A stretch of 43,498 bases of DNA, taken from Methylophilaceae bacterium (GTDB lineage Bacteria; Pseudomonadota; Gammaproteobacteria; Burkholderiales; Methylophilaceae). Shown one piece after another: positions 918-9,782 of this stretch (position 1 is its first letter; each line of letters opens with the position of its first letter). The stretch covers positions 1 to 43,498 of the forward strand of contig JAFMCB010000008.1 of NCBI GenBank assembly GCA_017858095.1. Reading direction: 5' to 3'. The notes below the pieces were generated by a model. It was not told where the DNA came from, made no database searches, and saw only the letters and a program-made list of their open reading frames with translations. Made by a program: the position numbers and the translations under genes.

Positions 918-1130
918 TTTTTTATAGTATCAAATTTAAAGATTGTAGTCGTGTATTTATTTTCGTAAAGCGCATTAAATCCCCAAAAATTTGAGCGTCC
1001 TACCTCTATATATAGCGCAGGGGGTAAGATAGTGAAATATATATTTTTAATATCGCGAACCCATTTGATGTTTTAGCCCCTCTTAGTAAGTAAGAGCAAA
1101 ACTAATAGTCAATTAACCAAGGAGATCAGT

Positions 1131-1343
1131 ATGTTTTATATCAAAAATCTTCCCGCCTGGGAGCGAGTTTTACGGATACTAGTTAGCATATTCGCACTAT
1201 ATTACGTATATCAAAACTGGGGGCAATCCAATCTGGACATTGCCATGGGTGTTATTGGCGCAATGTTGGCGATGACCGGCATGATGGGTTTTTGTCCAAT
1301 GTGTGCAATGGTTGGTAGAAAGCTCGACAAGGCTAAGCAGTAA
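1131..1343 (+). CDS. DUF2892 (YgaP-like) inner-membrane protein
   Basis: A 70-residue protein with the DUF2892 pattern: an N-terminal amphipathic start (MFYIKNLPAWERVLRI), one transmembrane helix at about residues 14-30, a second at about 35-54, and the motif GFCPMCAMVGR. The two cysteines at its end (CPMC) are typical of this family, whose members occur alone or as the membrane anchor of rhodaneses such as YgaP. A good Shine-Dalgarno (AAGGAG, 7 nt spacing) precedes the ATG. Its stop shares bases with the start of the sigma-factor gene (TAATG), so the two are almost certainly co-translated. The CPMC pair may sense thiols or metals, but that is inference. Confidence 0.85.
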   Translation: MFYIKNLPAWERVLRILVSIFALYYVYQNWGQSNLDIAMGVIGAMLAMTGMMGFCPMCAMVGRKLDKAKQ

Positions 1344-1867
1344 TGCGTGTCAATATTGATCGTAATAACTTGATCTGTGCCGCCCAAACAGGGGATGCAA
1401 AAGCCATTAATAGCCTTTTAGTGGTGTGTCAGGCAGATGTCCGCCGTTACGCCCGTAAGCATTGTCACATCAGCGACATTGACGATGCCGTTCAAGAGTC
1501 TTTATTGATTGTCTCAAAAAAAATCCAACATCTTAAAACCATCGCTGCATTTAGTTCATGGCTCTTTACGGTCATCAAACGCGAATGTCACAGACTCTCA
1601 AGAGCAATGTTTAAGCATGAGGCACTTGAAGAGGATGCGGTTAATGAGGAGTTAGCAAAGCGGCCCACAGATGAATTACGGATTGACTTAGCGGCTGCCT
1701 TGGAAAGTTTGCCAGCACATTATTTGGAAGTCTTGTTGTTGAGAGATTTCGAAGAATTAACCATCACAGAAATCGCGCAGCGGCTTGATGAACAAAAAGG
1801 GGCCATTAAAAGTAGGTTGCACCGTGCAAGAGAGTTAGTTCGGGAATATTTAATGGGTTCCGAATGA
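1343..1867 (+). CDS. ECF-type sigma-70 family RNA polymerase sigma factor
   Basis: A 174-residue protein with sigma region 2 at about residues 28-75 (DIDDAVQESLLIVSKKI, then a WLFTVIKRECHR segment). Region 4 lies at about 113-170 (LPAHYLEVLLLRDFEELTI, then TEIAQRLDEQKGAIKSRLHRAR), the standard helix-turn-helix that reads the -35 element. It lacks regions 1 and 3, as expected for an ECF factor. Its ATG overlaps the stop of the DUF2892 gene by one base. No recognisable zinc-finger anti-sigma gene follows; the partner may be the overlapping membrane protein or may be absent. The CGAK-repeat gene starts 68 nt downstream on the same strand and is a likely member of its regulon. Function call is firm; targets are inferred. 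Confidence 0.9.
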   Translation: MRVNIDRNNLICAAQTGDAKAINSLLVVCQADVRRYARKHCHISDIDDAVQESLLIVSKKIQHLKTIAAFSSWLFTVIKRECHRLSRAMFKHEALEEDAVNEELAKRPTDELRIDLAAALESLPAHYLEVLLLRDFEELTITEIAQRLDEQKGAIKSRLHRARELVREYLMGSE

Positions 1868-1935
1868 GGTAGGAGTGAGTAGCTGGTAGTCGGGAATTGC
1901 TGATATTTTATTAATTTAATGAAGGAGTTTTAAAA

Positions 1936-2202
1936 ATGAAGAATCGTTCAATTTTATGTGCAATGGCTGTAACTTCAGTATTAGCAATGTCTAGCCTCTC
2001 AGTGCTTGCCGCCGCATGTGGAGCTAAATGTGGTGCAAAGTGTAGGCCATCGGCTTCAACTTCTAAATGTGGGGCTAAATGTGGGGCAAAATGTGGGGCA
2101 AAATGTGGGGCAAAATGTGGGGCTAAATGTGGGGCTAAATGTGGGGCAAAATGTGGGGCTAAATTAATTCAAAGACCAGCGGTGCGTTATCCCGCCCAGT
2201 AA
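1936..2202 (+). CDS. Secreted CGAK-repeat cysteine-rich peptide
   Basis: An 88-residue protein with a clear Sec signal peptide (MKNRSILCAMAVTSVLAMSS, cleavage likely after SVLA-A). The mature part is two CGAK units, a spacer (CRPSASTSK), eight further perfect CGAK units and a short tail (LIQRPAVRYPAQ). The mature chain therefore carries eleven cysteines, one about every fourth residue, alternating with lysine. A strong Shine-Dalgarno (GAAGGAG, spacing 8) precedes the ATG, which suggests high expression. Short exported Cys/Lys-repeat proteins are known in proteobacteria, including copper-buffering bufferin/HvfA-like precursors, but no MNIO (DUF692) maturase or DUF2063 partner is visible nearby. 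A role in periplasmic metal or thiol chemistry is inferred from the ECF sigma and Czc-like neighbours. The function is unknown. Confidence 0.8.
   Translation: MKNRSILCAMAVTSVLAMSSLSVLAAACGAKCGAKCRPSASTSKCGAKCGAKCGAKCGAKCGAKCGAKCGAKCGAKLIQRPAVRYPAQ
2017..2040 (+). repeat. Two diverged 12-bp CGAK units upstream of the main array
   Basis: Units TGTGGAGCTAAA and TGTGGTGCAAAG encode CGAK twice. They differ from the main array at synonymous positions, so they look like the older part of the repeat region. Confidence 0.85.
2068..2163 (+). repeat. Tandem array of eight 12-bp units encoding CGAK
   Basis: Eight head-to-tail 12-bp units, either TGTGGGGCTAAA or TGTGGGGCAAAA; only one position varies between units and it is synonymous. 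Such uniform codon use indicates recent expansion by slippage or unequal crossing over. Copy number is expected to vary between strains. Confidence 0.95.
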
Positions 2203-2661: not shown

Positions 2662-3035
2662 GATTTTTTCTCCTATTGGTTTACATTCCATATATGTGTG
2701 CGCGTGAGCCAATTGCCATCTGAACTTTGCTCAAGTACGCTTGTGGTGATGCCCCCAAATGATGGCGTTTCACCATTGGTTTCTGCACCTTGAGCGTTCC
2801 ATCTGGCAACCTGATAGATCATTTTATCTGTACCACCCACTTCGATAATTTCTAGTGTGTGGTTATGGACACCACCATCAACGAAGCCTTTAAATAGATT
2901 TTCGATTTCAGAACGACCTACTAGAGTCTTCCCATTTCCTGGTGAGAGAGTGGCATTCTCTGTATAAAGTGCAGCCAGCTCCTTAACGTTGCCGCTATTG
3001 AGTGCCTTGTTCCATTTAGCATTGGCTGCTTCAAT
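2659..3035. repeat. Direct repeat, copy A (SnoaL-like domain plus start of tautomerase)
   Basis: Repeats 3191-3565 at an offset of about 530 bp. From 2739 to 3035 I see no mismatch to 3269-3565 (297 bases). The part beyond the gene end (2659-2710), which includes the tautomerase start codon, is also recognisable in copy B but has several substitutions and a 2-base indel. Confidence 0.9.
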
Positions 3036-3140
3036 CGTGATAGCAGGATTAACTTTTATTTCTTCAGTTTTTTGGCTACAAGCAACAATTAATGTCGATG
3101 CAACTAATCCAACTAATAACGCACGTAATAATGTATTCAT
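2673..3140 (-). CDS. SnoaL/DUF4440-like lipoprotein
   Basis: A 155-residue protein with a lipoprotein signal peptide: MNTLLRALLVGLVASTLIVA then Cys21, a good lipobox (LIVAC). The mature part is a single NTF2-like domain of the SnoaL/DUF4440 type (IEAANAKWNKALNSGNVKEL, ALYTENATLSPGNG, HIWNVNQ at the end). Members of this fold bind small hydrophobic molecules or act as ketosteroid-isomerase-like enzymes; no catalytic assignment is possible here. Almost the whole domain is duplicated in the gene 63 nt upstream, with only two residue differences over the shared part (V/L and T/A). Co-oriented with the upstream copy and with the tautomerase, whose ribosome binding site overlaps the end of this gene. 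Confidence 0.8.
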   Translation of the reverse strand: MNTLLRALLVGLVASTLIVACSQKTEEIKVNPAITIEAANAKWNKALNSGNVKELAALYTENATLSPGNGKTLVGRSEIENLFKGFVDGGVHNHTLEIIEVGGTDKMIYQVARWNAQGAETNGETPSFGGITTSVLEQSSDGNWLTRTHIWNVNQ

Positions 3141-3190: not shown

Positions 3191-3565
3191 CATGATTTTT
3201 TGCTATTGGTTTACGTTCCATATATGTGTACGTGCTAACCAATTGCCATCTGAACTTTGCTCAAGTAAGCTTGTGGTGATGCCCCCAAATGATGGCGTTT
3301 CACCATTGGTTTCTGCACCTTGAGCGTTCCATCTGGCAACCTGATAGATCATTTTATCTGTACCACCCACTTCGATAATTTCTAGTGTGTGGTTATGGAC
3401 ACCACCATCAACGAAGCCTTTAAATAGATTTTCGATTTCAGAACGACCTACTAGAGTCTTCCCATTTCCTGGTGAGAGAGTGGCATTCTCTGTATAAAGT
3501 GCAGCCAGCTCCTTAACGTTGCCGCTATTGAGTGCCTTGTTCCATTTAGCATTGGCTGCTTCAAT
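3191..3565. repeat. Direct repeat, copy B
   Basis: Partner of 2659-3035. Beyond the end of the 126-residue gene it keeps a relic of the tautomerase start: on the reverse strand ATG TTT CTC GTG TAA, matching ATG CCT CTC GTG of the intact gene but closed by a stop after four codons. Confidence 0.9.
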
Positions 3566-3583
3566 GATTGATCTGTTATTCAT
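3203..3583 (-). CDS. SnoaL/DUF4440-like protein without signal peptide (duplicate of the lipoprotein)
   Basis: A 126-residue protein, MNNRSIIEAANAKW..., with the same NTF2-like domain as the neighbouring lipoprotein. The first six residues replace the lipoprotein signal, so this copy should stay in the cytoplasm. A clear AGGAGA ribosome binding site lies 6 nt before the ATG. The promoter region 50-80 nt upstream carries a palindrome like that in front of marR. It is the first gene of the block 3583-2296 (this gene, lipoprotein, tautomerase). Family assignment is by motif recognition; the ligand or reaction is unknown. The sequence may represent gene amplification followed by relocation of one product. 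Confidence 0.8.
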   Translation of the reverse strand: MNNRSIIEAANAKWNKALNSGNVKELAALYTENATLSPGNGKTLVGRSEIENLFKGFVDGGVHNHTLEIIEVGGTDKMIYQVARWNAQGAETNGETPSFGGITTSLLEQSSDGNWLARTHIWNVNQ

Positions 3584-8022: not shown

Positions 8023-9240
8023 TTAAGCAACCTTTCCCTTGATTGCAACTACATTTGAACCAACCCTTAATGCGTCAAGATAGTCAGCCCAATGTTGCAT
8101 CATTAATTTTCTTTGAGCTAAGAACTTTGTTCGATTATAGGCAGAGCCCAATGCATCAGGTACTTTATGAGCTAACTGTTGCTCAATAATCAAGGGGTCA
8201 TAGTTTAAACGCTCATGCAGAATTGTTCGAGCCATTGCTCTGAAGCCATGTCCCGTTATGTCTTTCTGAGTGTCGTACCCAAGTCGTTTTAGAGCTGCAT
8301 TAATAGCAGCATCACTCATAGGCTTTTTAGGGTCATGTGAACCAGGAAAAACAAATTCTCTATTGCCTGAAATAGGATGTAATGCATTAAAGATATCTAA
8401 AGCTTGTTTTGATAAAGGAACAATATGTTCTGTTTTAGTTTTGCTAACCTGATACTTCCATTCAGCAGTCTTCAAGTCGATATCCGCCCATCTAGCACGG
8501 CGAAGCTCGCCAGGCCTTACAAAGACTAAAGGTGCCAACTTCAAGGCATGCTGAACAATCAAGCCGCCTGTGAAGCCCTCTATCGCTTTTAGCAAATCAG
8601 CAACTTGGTCCGGCTCTGTGAGTGATGCCATGTGTTTTACGGTCGGAGATGGGATAGCGCCTCGCAAATCCGCAGTAATGTCTCTAATAGCTAATCCTTG
8701 CTGCACTGCATATCTAAAAACCTGTCCTGTCGCTTGCAGCGTTCTATGCGCGGTTTCTAATTTATTAAGTTTTTGTATTCTTCTTAAGCAGTCCAACAAG
8801 TCTGGAGCTTTTATTGATTTAATAGGCTGATTTCCTATCCAGGGAAACAAATAATGCTCAAAACGCTTTAATGTTCTATCGCGATGCGACTGAGTTAATG
8901 ATTTTAACTGCGTTGTCACCCAATCTCTTGCTAAGAACTCAAAGCTGTTTTTGCCGTCCTCAATCCGTGCAGCCTTTTCAAGCTTCCTATCAGCCGATGG
9001 GTTAATGCCTTGGGCTAACGTTTTCCTTGCTTCAGAGTGCTTAGCTCTTGCATCTTTCAAACTTATGTCAGGGTAGACGCCCAAAGAGATTGTTTTTTGC
9101 TTACCATCAAACCGATAAGAGTATCTCCACCATCTAGAGCCATTGGTATTTACGAGAAGGAACAACCCACCGCCGTCAGATAGCTTGTAGGGAGTTGCCT
9201 TTGGTTTAGAATTTCTGATTGCTGTGTCATTAAGTGCCAT
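8023..9240 (-). CDS. Tyrosine integrase (DUF4102/P4-CP4 type)
   Basis: 405 residues from the ATG at 9240, which has AGGTG just upstream; a GTG two codons earlier is possible. The N-terminus (ALNDTAIRNSKPKATPYKLS DGGGL) is the DUF4102 arm-binding domain of P4/CP4-57-like integrases. The catalytic domain shows Arg in VRPGELRRARW, Lys in SKTKTEHIVP, HGFRA, then IEQQLAHK and the tyrosine in GSAYNR, so all key residues are present. It is adjacent to the 3' end of ssrA, a classic target for this integrase family, and reads away from it. It appears intact. Confidence 0.95.
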   Translation of the reverse strand: MALNDTAIRNSKPKATPYKLSDGGGLFLLVNTNGSRWWRYSYRFDGKQKTISLGVYPDISLKDARAKHSEARKTLAQGINPSADRKLEKAARIEDGKNSFEFLARDWVTTQLKSLTQSHRDRTLKRFEHYLFPWIGNQPIKSIKAPDLLDCLRRIQKLNKLETAHRTLQATGQVFRYAVQQGLAIRDITADLRGAIPSPTVKHMASLTEPDQVADLLKAIEGFTGGLIVQHALKLAPLVFVRPGELRRARWADIDLKTAEWKYQVSKTKTEHIVPLSKQALDIFNALHPISGNREFVFPGSHDPKKPMSDAAINAALKRLGYDTQKDITGHGFRAMARTILHERLNYDPLIIEQQLAHKVPDALGSAYNRTKFLAQRKLMMQHWADYLDALRVGSNVVAIKGKVA

Positions 9241-9255
9241 AATCACCTCGCTGCT

Positions 9256-9427: not shown

Positions 9428-9782
9428 TGGTGGAGCTGGGGGGAATCGAACCCCCGTCCGCAAGCCCTCTACAGGCAGTTCTACATACTTAGCTATGTTG
9501 TTTATATTTAACTTTTACTTCACCAACAAGCAAGCAAATGTAAAAGCGAGTTACCTTAAGTTTAAGAGATTGTTAAGTAACCCAATAATCCCCGAGTCTC
9601 TCTTTATGACGCTGTAACCTGAGCGAGTGACGTATCAGGACAGCGTTTAGCTGGAATTAAGCAGCTAAAGCGTAGTTATCGTCATTTGCGATTACTGTTT
9701 TTCTAGTTTATTAACGAGGTACCTAGAAGCCTCGGTATGCACTGATCTGCTTTGTAACCCACGTCGAAACCGGGTCAGCCCC
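9428..9782 (-). ncRNA. ssrA: Transfer-messenger RNA (tmRNA)
   Basis: On the reverse strand the RNA starts GGGGCTGACCCGG and ends GGTTCGATTCCCCCCAGCTCC followed by ACCA. Its 5' GGGGCU pairs with AGCUCC as a tRNA-like acceptor stem (one G-U), and the T-arm is canonical. The resume codon opens the tag frame at 9689-9657: ANDDNYALAA then TAA, a standard proteobacterial degradation tag. Length is about 355 nt, normal for a one-piece tmRNA. It rescues stalled ribosomes with SmpB, whose gene is immediately upstream on the same strand. The 3' end is the probable integration site of the neighbouring element. Confidence 0.97.

Follow-up and report, generated by a model that had tools for sequence, protein, structure and literature searches.

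An apparently truncated CGAK-repeat gene on probably transferred DNA points to a possible undescribed bacterial system of cysteine-rich exported peptides paired with DUF6969

The window analyzed here, 43,498 nt, is a whole contig of a Methylophilaceae draft genome (44 contigs, 88.9% complete) and hence starts at a contig end. It carries a short open reading frame (ORF) encoding a CGAK-repeat protein (Table 1), which starts 68 nt downstream of an ECF sigma factor gene, itself preceded by a gene for a YgaP-like membrane protein. The predicted product has a signal-like N terminus, two CGAK units, a CRPSASTSK spacer, eight further CGAK units and a short tail, in which VRYPAQ and the stop codon come straight after the residues LIQRPA. 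A motif count gives 10 CGAK units and 12 cysteines, 11 of them beyond residue 26, and TRF reports a single tandem array in the window, of period 12, which encodes the eight consecutive units. A sequence-only reading of this DNA had described a signal peptide, ten CGAK units, eleven mature cysteines, eight units nearly identical at the DNA level and a strong ribosome-binding site, all of which we find again; the even cysteine spacing that it also described is broken by the spacer between units 2 and 3. Most related Cys-repeat proteins carry an [NS]PC motif, which is missing from the CGAK unit. Because any in-frame repeat of 12 bp is bound to keep its frame open, the open frame is weak evidence by itself; the ORF is supported beyond chance because it has an in-frame, array-bearing homologue within the genus and because distant Cys-repeat proteins adjoin the same partner gene, DUF6969.

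Elsewhere in the window we note an outer-membrane efflux gene (2-442), two near-identical tandem DUF4440/SnoaL-like ORFs (2673-3140 and 3203-3583, minus strand), one with and one without a lipoprotein-like N terminus, and a 42-bp stretch (2266-2307) resembling three genus members (G005, G026 and G027) at 83-86%. Between 4371 and 9246, integrase, DUF5906/VapE-like and PriCT-2 genes lie beside ssrA (tmRNA, 9428-9782) and have the look of an integrative element. Plasmid records searched with window positions 1131-2202 gave no match.

Table 1. Features of the CGAK-repeat locus and its surroundings, in window coordinates
Feature	Position	Strand	Basis or remark
Block 98% identical to G022:C105:8681-9845	1018..2182	+	homology ends on both sides
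YgaP-like transmembrane protein (PF11127)	1131..1343	+	Pfam E 5.8e-15
ECF sigma factor, probable operon regulator	1343..1867	+	profile match; gene order same in G022
Ribosome-binding site AAGGAG	1922..1927	+	8 nt 5' of ATG; from sequence
CGAK-repeat ORF	1936..2202	+	88 aa; very probably the N-terminal remnant of a Cys-array/cytochrome fusion (sequence and 190-aa G022 homologue)
Probable Sec signal peptide, residues 1-26	1936..2013	+	by-eye call from sequence
12-bp tandem array, eight consecutive CGAK units	2063..2164	+	TRF: 8.5 copies, 95% match
LIQRPA, probable leftover of linker to lost cytochrome domain	2164..2181	+	comparison with G022 protein
Tyrosine integrase	8023..9246	-	adjoins tmRNA (9428-9782)

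A homologue search of 120 genomes returned eight with a match at E ≤ 0.01, the window's own genome included. Among the other seven, only G022, of the same genus, has a strong match (95% identity over residues 1-84, E 1.8e-44), in frame and with the array kept; the sequence-only reading had taken an absent or out-of-frame array in relatives as evidence against the gene, and G022, the sole close homologue, shows neither. There the frame continues past KADAKLIQRPA into a domain with a CATCH heme motif and a match to SoxA/TsdA-type cytochromes c (PF21342, SoxA-TsdA, E 6.7e-9), for a total of 190 aa, and 5 bp after this fusion gene comes a gene for a 213-aa DUF6969 protein (PF22308, E 4.5e-36). G112, with a weaker match (E 7.6e-5), encodes an 82-aa peptide with scattered CGAK-like units, followed by DUF6969 and then by an ECF sigma factor gene. 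The matches in G109, G032, G102, G117 and G084 (seven loci) were rejected as homologues: their translations show internal stops, repeats in doubtful frame or a glycine-zipper-like protein.

This comparison makes it very probable that the window gene is a truncated fusion. The window ORF contains no heme motif and gives no SoxA/TsdA match in Pfam, whereas the G022 homologue has both, and the window copy breaks at position 2182, inside a linker whose Arg-Pro is shared by all 38 aligned cytochromes. DUF6969, adjacent in G022, was found neither beside the window ORF nor elsewhere in the window genome, and a G022-type cytochrome domain was likewise not found there (genome 88.9% complete). With the array, signal, sigma factor and YgaP-like gene retained and the cytochrome and DUF6969 gone, the window copy would be a decaying remnant unless it serves as a minimal thiol peptide. 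The earlier picture of a complete, free-standing peptide thus gives way to that of a gene cut in its linker, since in the intact homologue the Cys array continues into a cytochrome, with DUF6969 next in line. Taken literally, no maturation enzyme lies nearby; this copy, however, lacks the downstream half of the locus.

Over window positions 1018-2182 the identity to the G022 contig is 98%; beyond that, the whole window shows no detectable similarity to this contig, and the flanks of the shared block are unrelated in the two genomes. The tautomerase region just 3' of the block matches 11 other genus members, ten of them at 66-68% (203-385 bp) and the eleventh at 79% over 76 bp. The block has the look of a recent transfer, because it stands at 98% to G022 while the adjacent tautomerase region reaches only 66-68% to genus members. 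Near it lie an integrase and tmRNA in the window and a tRNA cluster in G022. The integrase beside the tmRNA suggests a genomic island, to which we infer that the CGAK block belongs, and the shared block appears to have been moved horizontally and then truncated. All in all, the window gene has the appearance of a truncated orphan within transferred DNA.

We then turn from this copy to the partner gene. DUF6969 is present in 14 of 249 relatives, in 29 of 369 genomes drawn evenly from the class and in 19 of 398 drawn evenly from the phylum; each search also covered 14 control genomes, none of which had it. Scanning contigs gave at least 553 DUF6969-related stretches, of which the best 80 loci were retained. 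A Cys-array ORF lies within 2.5 kb of DUF6969 at 61 of these best 80 loci and at 47 of the 57 with full flanks; as a control, 81 arrays fall in 419,550 bp near DUF6969 against 7 in 633,864 bp of the outer parts of the same loci. Those of the best 80 without a counted array are partly below the script's threshold and partly at contig ends; others, such as L086, L089, L099, L110 and L112, show none. In an independent class set of 29 DUF6969 loci, whose sampling took no account of arrays, a by-eye count finds a short Cys-repeat ORF immediately 5' of DUF6969 at 25 (L150 and L152 with two repeats each only) and, at L134, an array cytochrome some 1 kb off; L140, L141 (3.6-kb contig) and L160 have DUF6969 but no array. 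At L160 a YgaP-like transmembrane gene lies directly upstream of DUF6969, with no Cys-repeat peptide; YgaP-like genes are also near DUF6969 in G022 and L040. Eight alphaproteobacterial loci (L096-L098, L103, L107, L113, L116, L119) carry, some 1.4-1.6 kb from DUF6969 on the opposite strand, open frames of about 390-430 aa that contain long CAACDPC/NPCAA arrays.

The repeat units near DUF6969 vary widely (NPCAAK, NPCAPSARGG, SPCGL, NPCSLDED, GGGYGGGNPCAPG); with units so different, shared ancestry of the arrays alone becomes a less likely cause of the pairing. Proline precedes 552 of the 683 cysteines in array ORFs, a partly circular count, the ORFs having been picked with a PC-containing pattern. 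Among the 249 relatives, DUF6969 occurs in 10 of 11 with a G022-type cytochrome domain against 4 of 238 without (Fisher 5e-14), and among the 369 class genomes an NPCAAK peptide occurs in 14 (E ≤ 0.001), seven of them with DUF6969 (Fisher 2e-5); our Fisher and binomial values assume independent genomes or loci, which relatives are not. The eleventh cytochrome-domain genome, G231, outside the DUF6969 set, has a partial match (E 3e-6). The four best NPCAAK matches (G433, G422, G537 and G312; E < 1e-12) are each no more than about 1.5 kb from DUF6969; the peptide also adjoins DUF6969 in G349 and G559 and is on a different contig from it in G443. Because the seven NPCAAK genomes without DUF6969 have scores of 4e-8 to 1e-3, the pairing is strong, though not exclusive at this sensitivity.

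The window ORF is an exported-type Cys-repeat region homologous to this DUF6969-linked group, as defined here (95% to G022). NCBIfam holds no family for the six Cys-repeat peptides and one DUF6969 protein searched, and in the library searched we found no paper under the DUF6969 name or accession and none naming the DUF6969/Cys-repeat pairing or NPCAAK or CGAK repeats; a search for RiPPs (ribosomally synthesized and post-translationally modified peptides) was likewise empty, and searches around YeeE, sulfur carriers and cysteine-rich/SoxA proteins turned up general background. We consider it likely that DUF6969 is a functional partner of the Cys-repeat family, and the pairing suggests a bacterial system, so far undescribed, with exported peptides rich in cysteine at its core.

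Across 13 diverse DUF6969 sequences, residues E33, H36, D41, D44, H54, H56, H65, H67 and H99 are invariant, six of them histidines. An AlphaFold2 model of the protein from a Methylotenera assembly (mean pLDDT 93) places H77/H79, H88/H90, H59 and H122 (own numbering) on or beside neighbouring strands, where they may form one metal site. Compared with the PDB, the model has no convincing relative among the matches listed (best Foldseek E 0.49; best VIA-align 2 Z 4.8 over 46 residues), and the one PDB sequence match of the profile (E 0.59) was taken as chance. By-eye inspection revealed no obvious signal sequence. This, together with the invariant His/Asp/Glu set, is why we propose DUF6969 as a cytoplasmic, metal-dependent enzyme or chaperone; it would work on the unexported peptide, as a modifying enzyme or as a dedicated chaperone. 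That it modifies the peptide cysteines is a possibility somewhat short of an even chance.

The cytochrome domain divides almost evenly in Pfam between SoxA-TsdA and CCP_MauG (12 and 11 of 105 proteins from 25 type-A loci, with Sigma70 at 7 and Sulf_transp at 3). In structure, its model comes closest to TsdA and SoxAX, which supply all 11 best matches, several of them for the same protein (Foldseek E 0.02-0.11), while its profile finds diheme peroxidases (1.8e-4) ahead of SoxA (7.5e-4) among PDB sequences; NCBIfam gives one array cytochrome a sub-threshold SoxA match (4.7e-8). An invariant Cys103 could presumably serve as heme ligand, as in SoxA/TsdA. At L043, L045, L053 and others, the SoxA/TsdA-like cytochrome has NPCAAK arrays at both ends, with the heme domain between them. 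Heme-motif-free array ORFs lie near DUF6969 at 37 of the best 80 loci, so an array can exist without a cytochrome.

Within 5 kb of 117 distinct DUF6969 loci we find a SoxA-type cytochrome at 53, YeeE at 35, an ECF sigma factor at 29, a periplasmic-type rhodanese at 15, and CusA and a P-type ATPase at one each; the search seeds were themselves locus neighbours with few metal genes among them, and these counts may miss other metal genes. By locus set (six loci being in two sets), YeeE is found at 16 of 80, 15 of 29 and 5 of 14, and rhodanese at 0 of 80, 14 of 29 and 1 of 14, which makes the seed-type rhodanese a feature of a divergent branch. A Pfam tally at 18 divergent loci gives Sulf_transp 15 and rhodanese 12 of 75 proteins. 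At one locus (L040, in G223, which is perhaps Polynucleobacter-like), a single row runs from YeeE-type genes and a Cys peptide through DUF6969 and a rhodanese to an ArsR regulator and a YgaP-like protein. YeeE was found in none of the three genomes with CGAK-type peptides (the window genome, G022 and G112); for this reason, and with no seed-type rhodanese within 5 kb of the best 80 loci, the CGAK and NPCAAK branches are tied to sulfur indirectly. L039 adjoins a CusB/CusF-like gene and L012 a cation P-type ATPase. Given these metal transporters and the CGAK genomes without YeeE, we put a sulfur role for the Cys arrays at even odds, and a metal role at about half that weight.

The best overall explanation, to which we assign a probability of roughly 0.55, is that the repeats are exported thiol polymers bearing sulfane sulfur, with DUF6969 as their putative pre-export partner or maturase. 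The Cys repeats would be Sec-exported and would carry or buffer sulfane sulfur, as Cys persulfide or thiosulfonate, outside the cytoplasmic membrane. A SoxA/TsdA-like cytochrome could load them in one branch and a rhodanese in another, and YeeE-type transporters, where present, could unload them. More tentative, and rather unlikely in its full form, is the idea that DUF6969 is a His-rich metalloenzyme of a PDB-unmatched fold that would modify (for example persulfidate, oxidise or metallate) the cysteines of Sec-exported repeats or cytochrome-tethered arrays, which would act as swinging-arm sulfur carriers in a widespread undescribed proteobacterial system; such a system would parallel bufferins without MNIO, and SoxYZ with peptides.

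A periplasmic Cu/Zn buffer is an unlikely but serious competitor: the arrays would bind metal, the ECF sigma factor would induce them, and DUF6969 would be a metallochaperone or a maturase installing metal-binding groups. The dense exported-type Cys arrays, the invariant histidines of DUF6969, the metal-transporter neighbours at L039 and L012 and the ECF sigma genes, reminiscent of Buf1 clusters (PMC12452194), are consistent with it. Against it stand the single CusA and P-type ATPase loci next to 35 with YeeE, though the few metal seeds may have missed other metal genes, and the fusion of arrays to a cytochrome that in structure comes closest to thiosulfate enzymes. Far less probable, indeed very improbable, is the sequence-only suggestion of a bufferin- or oxazolin-type precursor whose MNIO (DUF692) maturase is encoded elsewhere in the genome. 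The exported-looking, Cys-rich character of the peptide and its lack of a neighbouring DUF692 gene, as that reading had it, hold up, and MNIO genes do lie within 5 kb of DUF6969 at 7 of the 117 loci. However, the search that it called for found neither DUF692 (PF05114) nor DUF2063 (PF09836) in the window genome (0 of 1 each; 88.9% complete), PF05114 was not found in G022 (84% complete), which carries the intact version, and Pfam and NCBIfam searches up to E 1 gave the window ORF no match to DUF2282/BufA or any other bufferin family; the usual partner among relatives is DUF6969, not MNIO. MNIO is found in 20 of 50 genomes with DUF6969 loci (covering 50 of the best 80 loci) and in 9 of 14 in a further set, counts that leave many genomes, G022 among them, with DUF6969 and arrays but no detected MNIO. 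The two kinds of peptide system can be neighbours: MNIO lies about 0.6-8 kb from DUF6969 at L053, L066, L087 and L136 (G433), beginning in G433 636 bp past the DUF6969 match. MNIO may act on some DUF6969-linked peptides (L053, L066, G433), since it neighbours DUF6969 there.

Two further alternatives concern the window copy alone. Recombination may have left a dead remnant, a passenger ORF without present function; this has a real chance, about one in three by our reckoning, given the break in a conserved linker, the partner genes not found and the mobile setting, yet the ORF, ribosome-binding site, sigma factor and YgaP-like gene are all intact, the first 43 codons are identical to G022, and heme-motif-free array ORFs are common near DUF6969. 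It is improbable that the junction at 2182 is an assembly artifact. A 44-contig draft, a window starting at a contig end and the sharp ends of the similarity to G022 at 1018 and 2182 would suit a chimera, but the left part preserves the G022 operon order, and no second cytochrome or DUF6969 copy is found in the window genome, of which about 11% may be missing.

If sulfur carriage is the correct reading, a functional analogy is the SoxYZ sulfur carrier, in which a thiol served by a SoxA-type cytochrome carries sulfur outside the cytoplasm; the peptides here have many cysteines in low-complexity repeats, and the likeness is one of function, with no homology to SoxY claimed. Relative to SoxA/TsdA, whose PF21342 family and structures the intact cytochromes match, the array cytochromes have a single CxxCH, about 100 aa, Cys arrays at one or both ends and a CCP_MauG match as well, and the domain is lost in the window copy. 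Bufferins (Buf1/DUF2282 and Buf2), with MNIO (DUF692) and DUF2063, share with our group the Sec-exported Cys-rich peptide, a gene for an enzyme (in our group a putative one) directly 3' and, for Buf1 clusters, sigma factors (PMC12452194), but the group here has DUF6969, a separate Pfam family, as partner, no DUF2282 match, tandemly repeated cysteines and cytochrome and YeeE neighbours. The Buf_EGKCG/oxazolin (HvfA-type) peptides have tandem Cys repeats behind a signal peptide in common with the window peptide, in which the EGKCG motif is absent and ten CGAK units stand instead, with MNIO not found in its own genome or in G022.

The window gene itself is most probably no more than an ordinary casualty that preserves one end of a larger, broken gene; this striking orphan nevertheless leads to the DUF6969/Cys-repeat pairing, through which DUF6969 gains a specific, testable partner in exported Cys-repeat peptides. 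The route by which the second sulfur atom of thiosulfate enters the cytoplasm is given as unknown in one account (PMC11582611). If our reading is true, the peptides would be candidate carriers for holding sulfane sulfur outside the membrane and passing it to YeeE-type transporters, and modified Sec-exported peptides would extend beyond MNIO chemistry.
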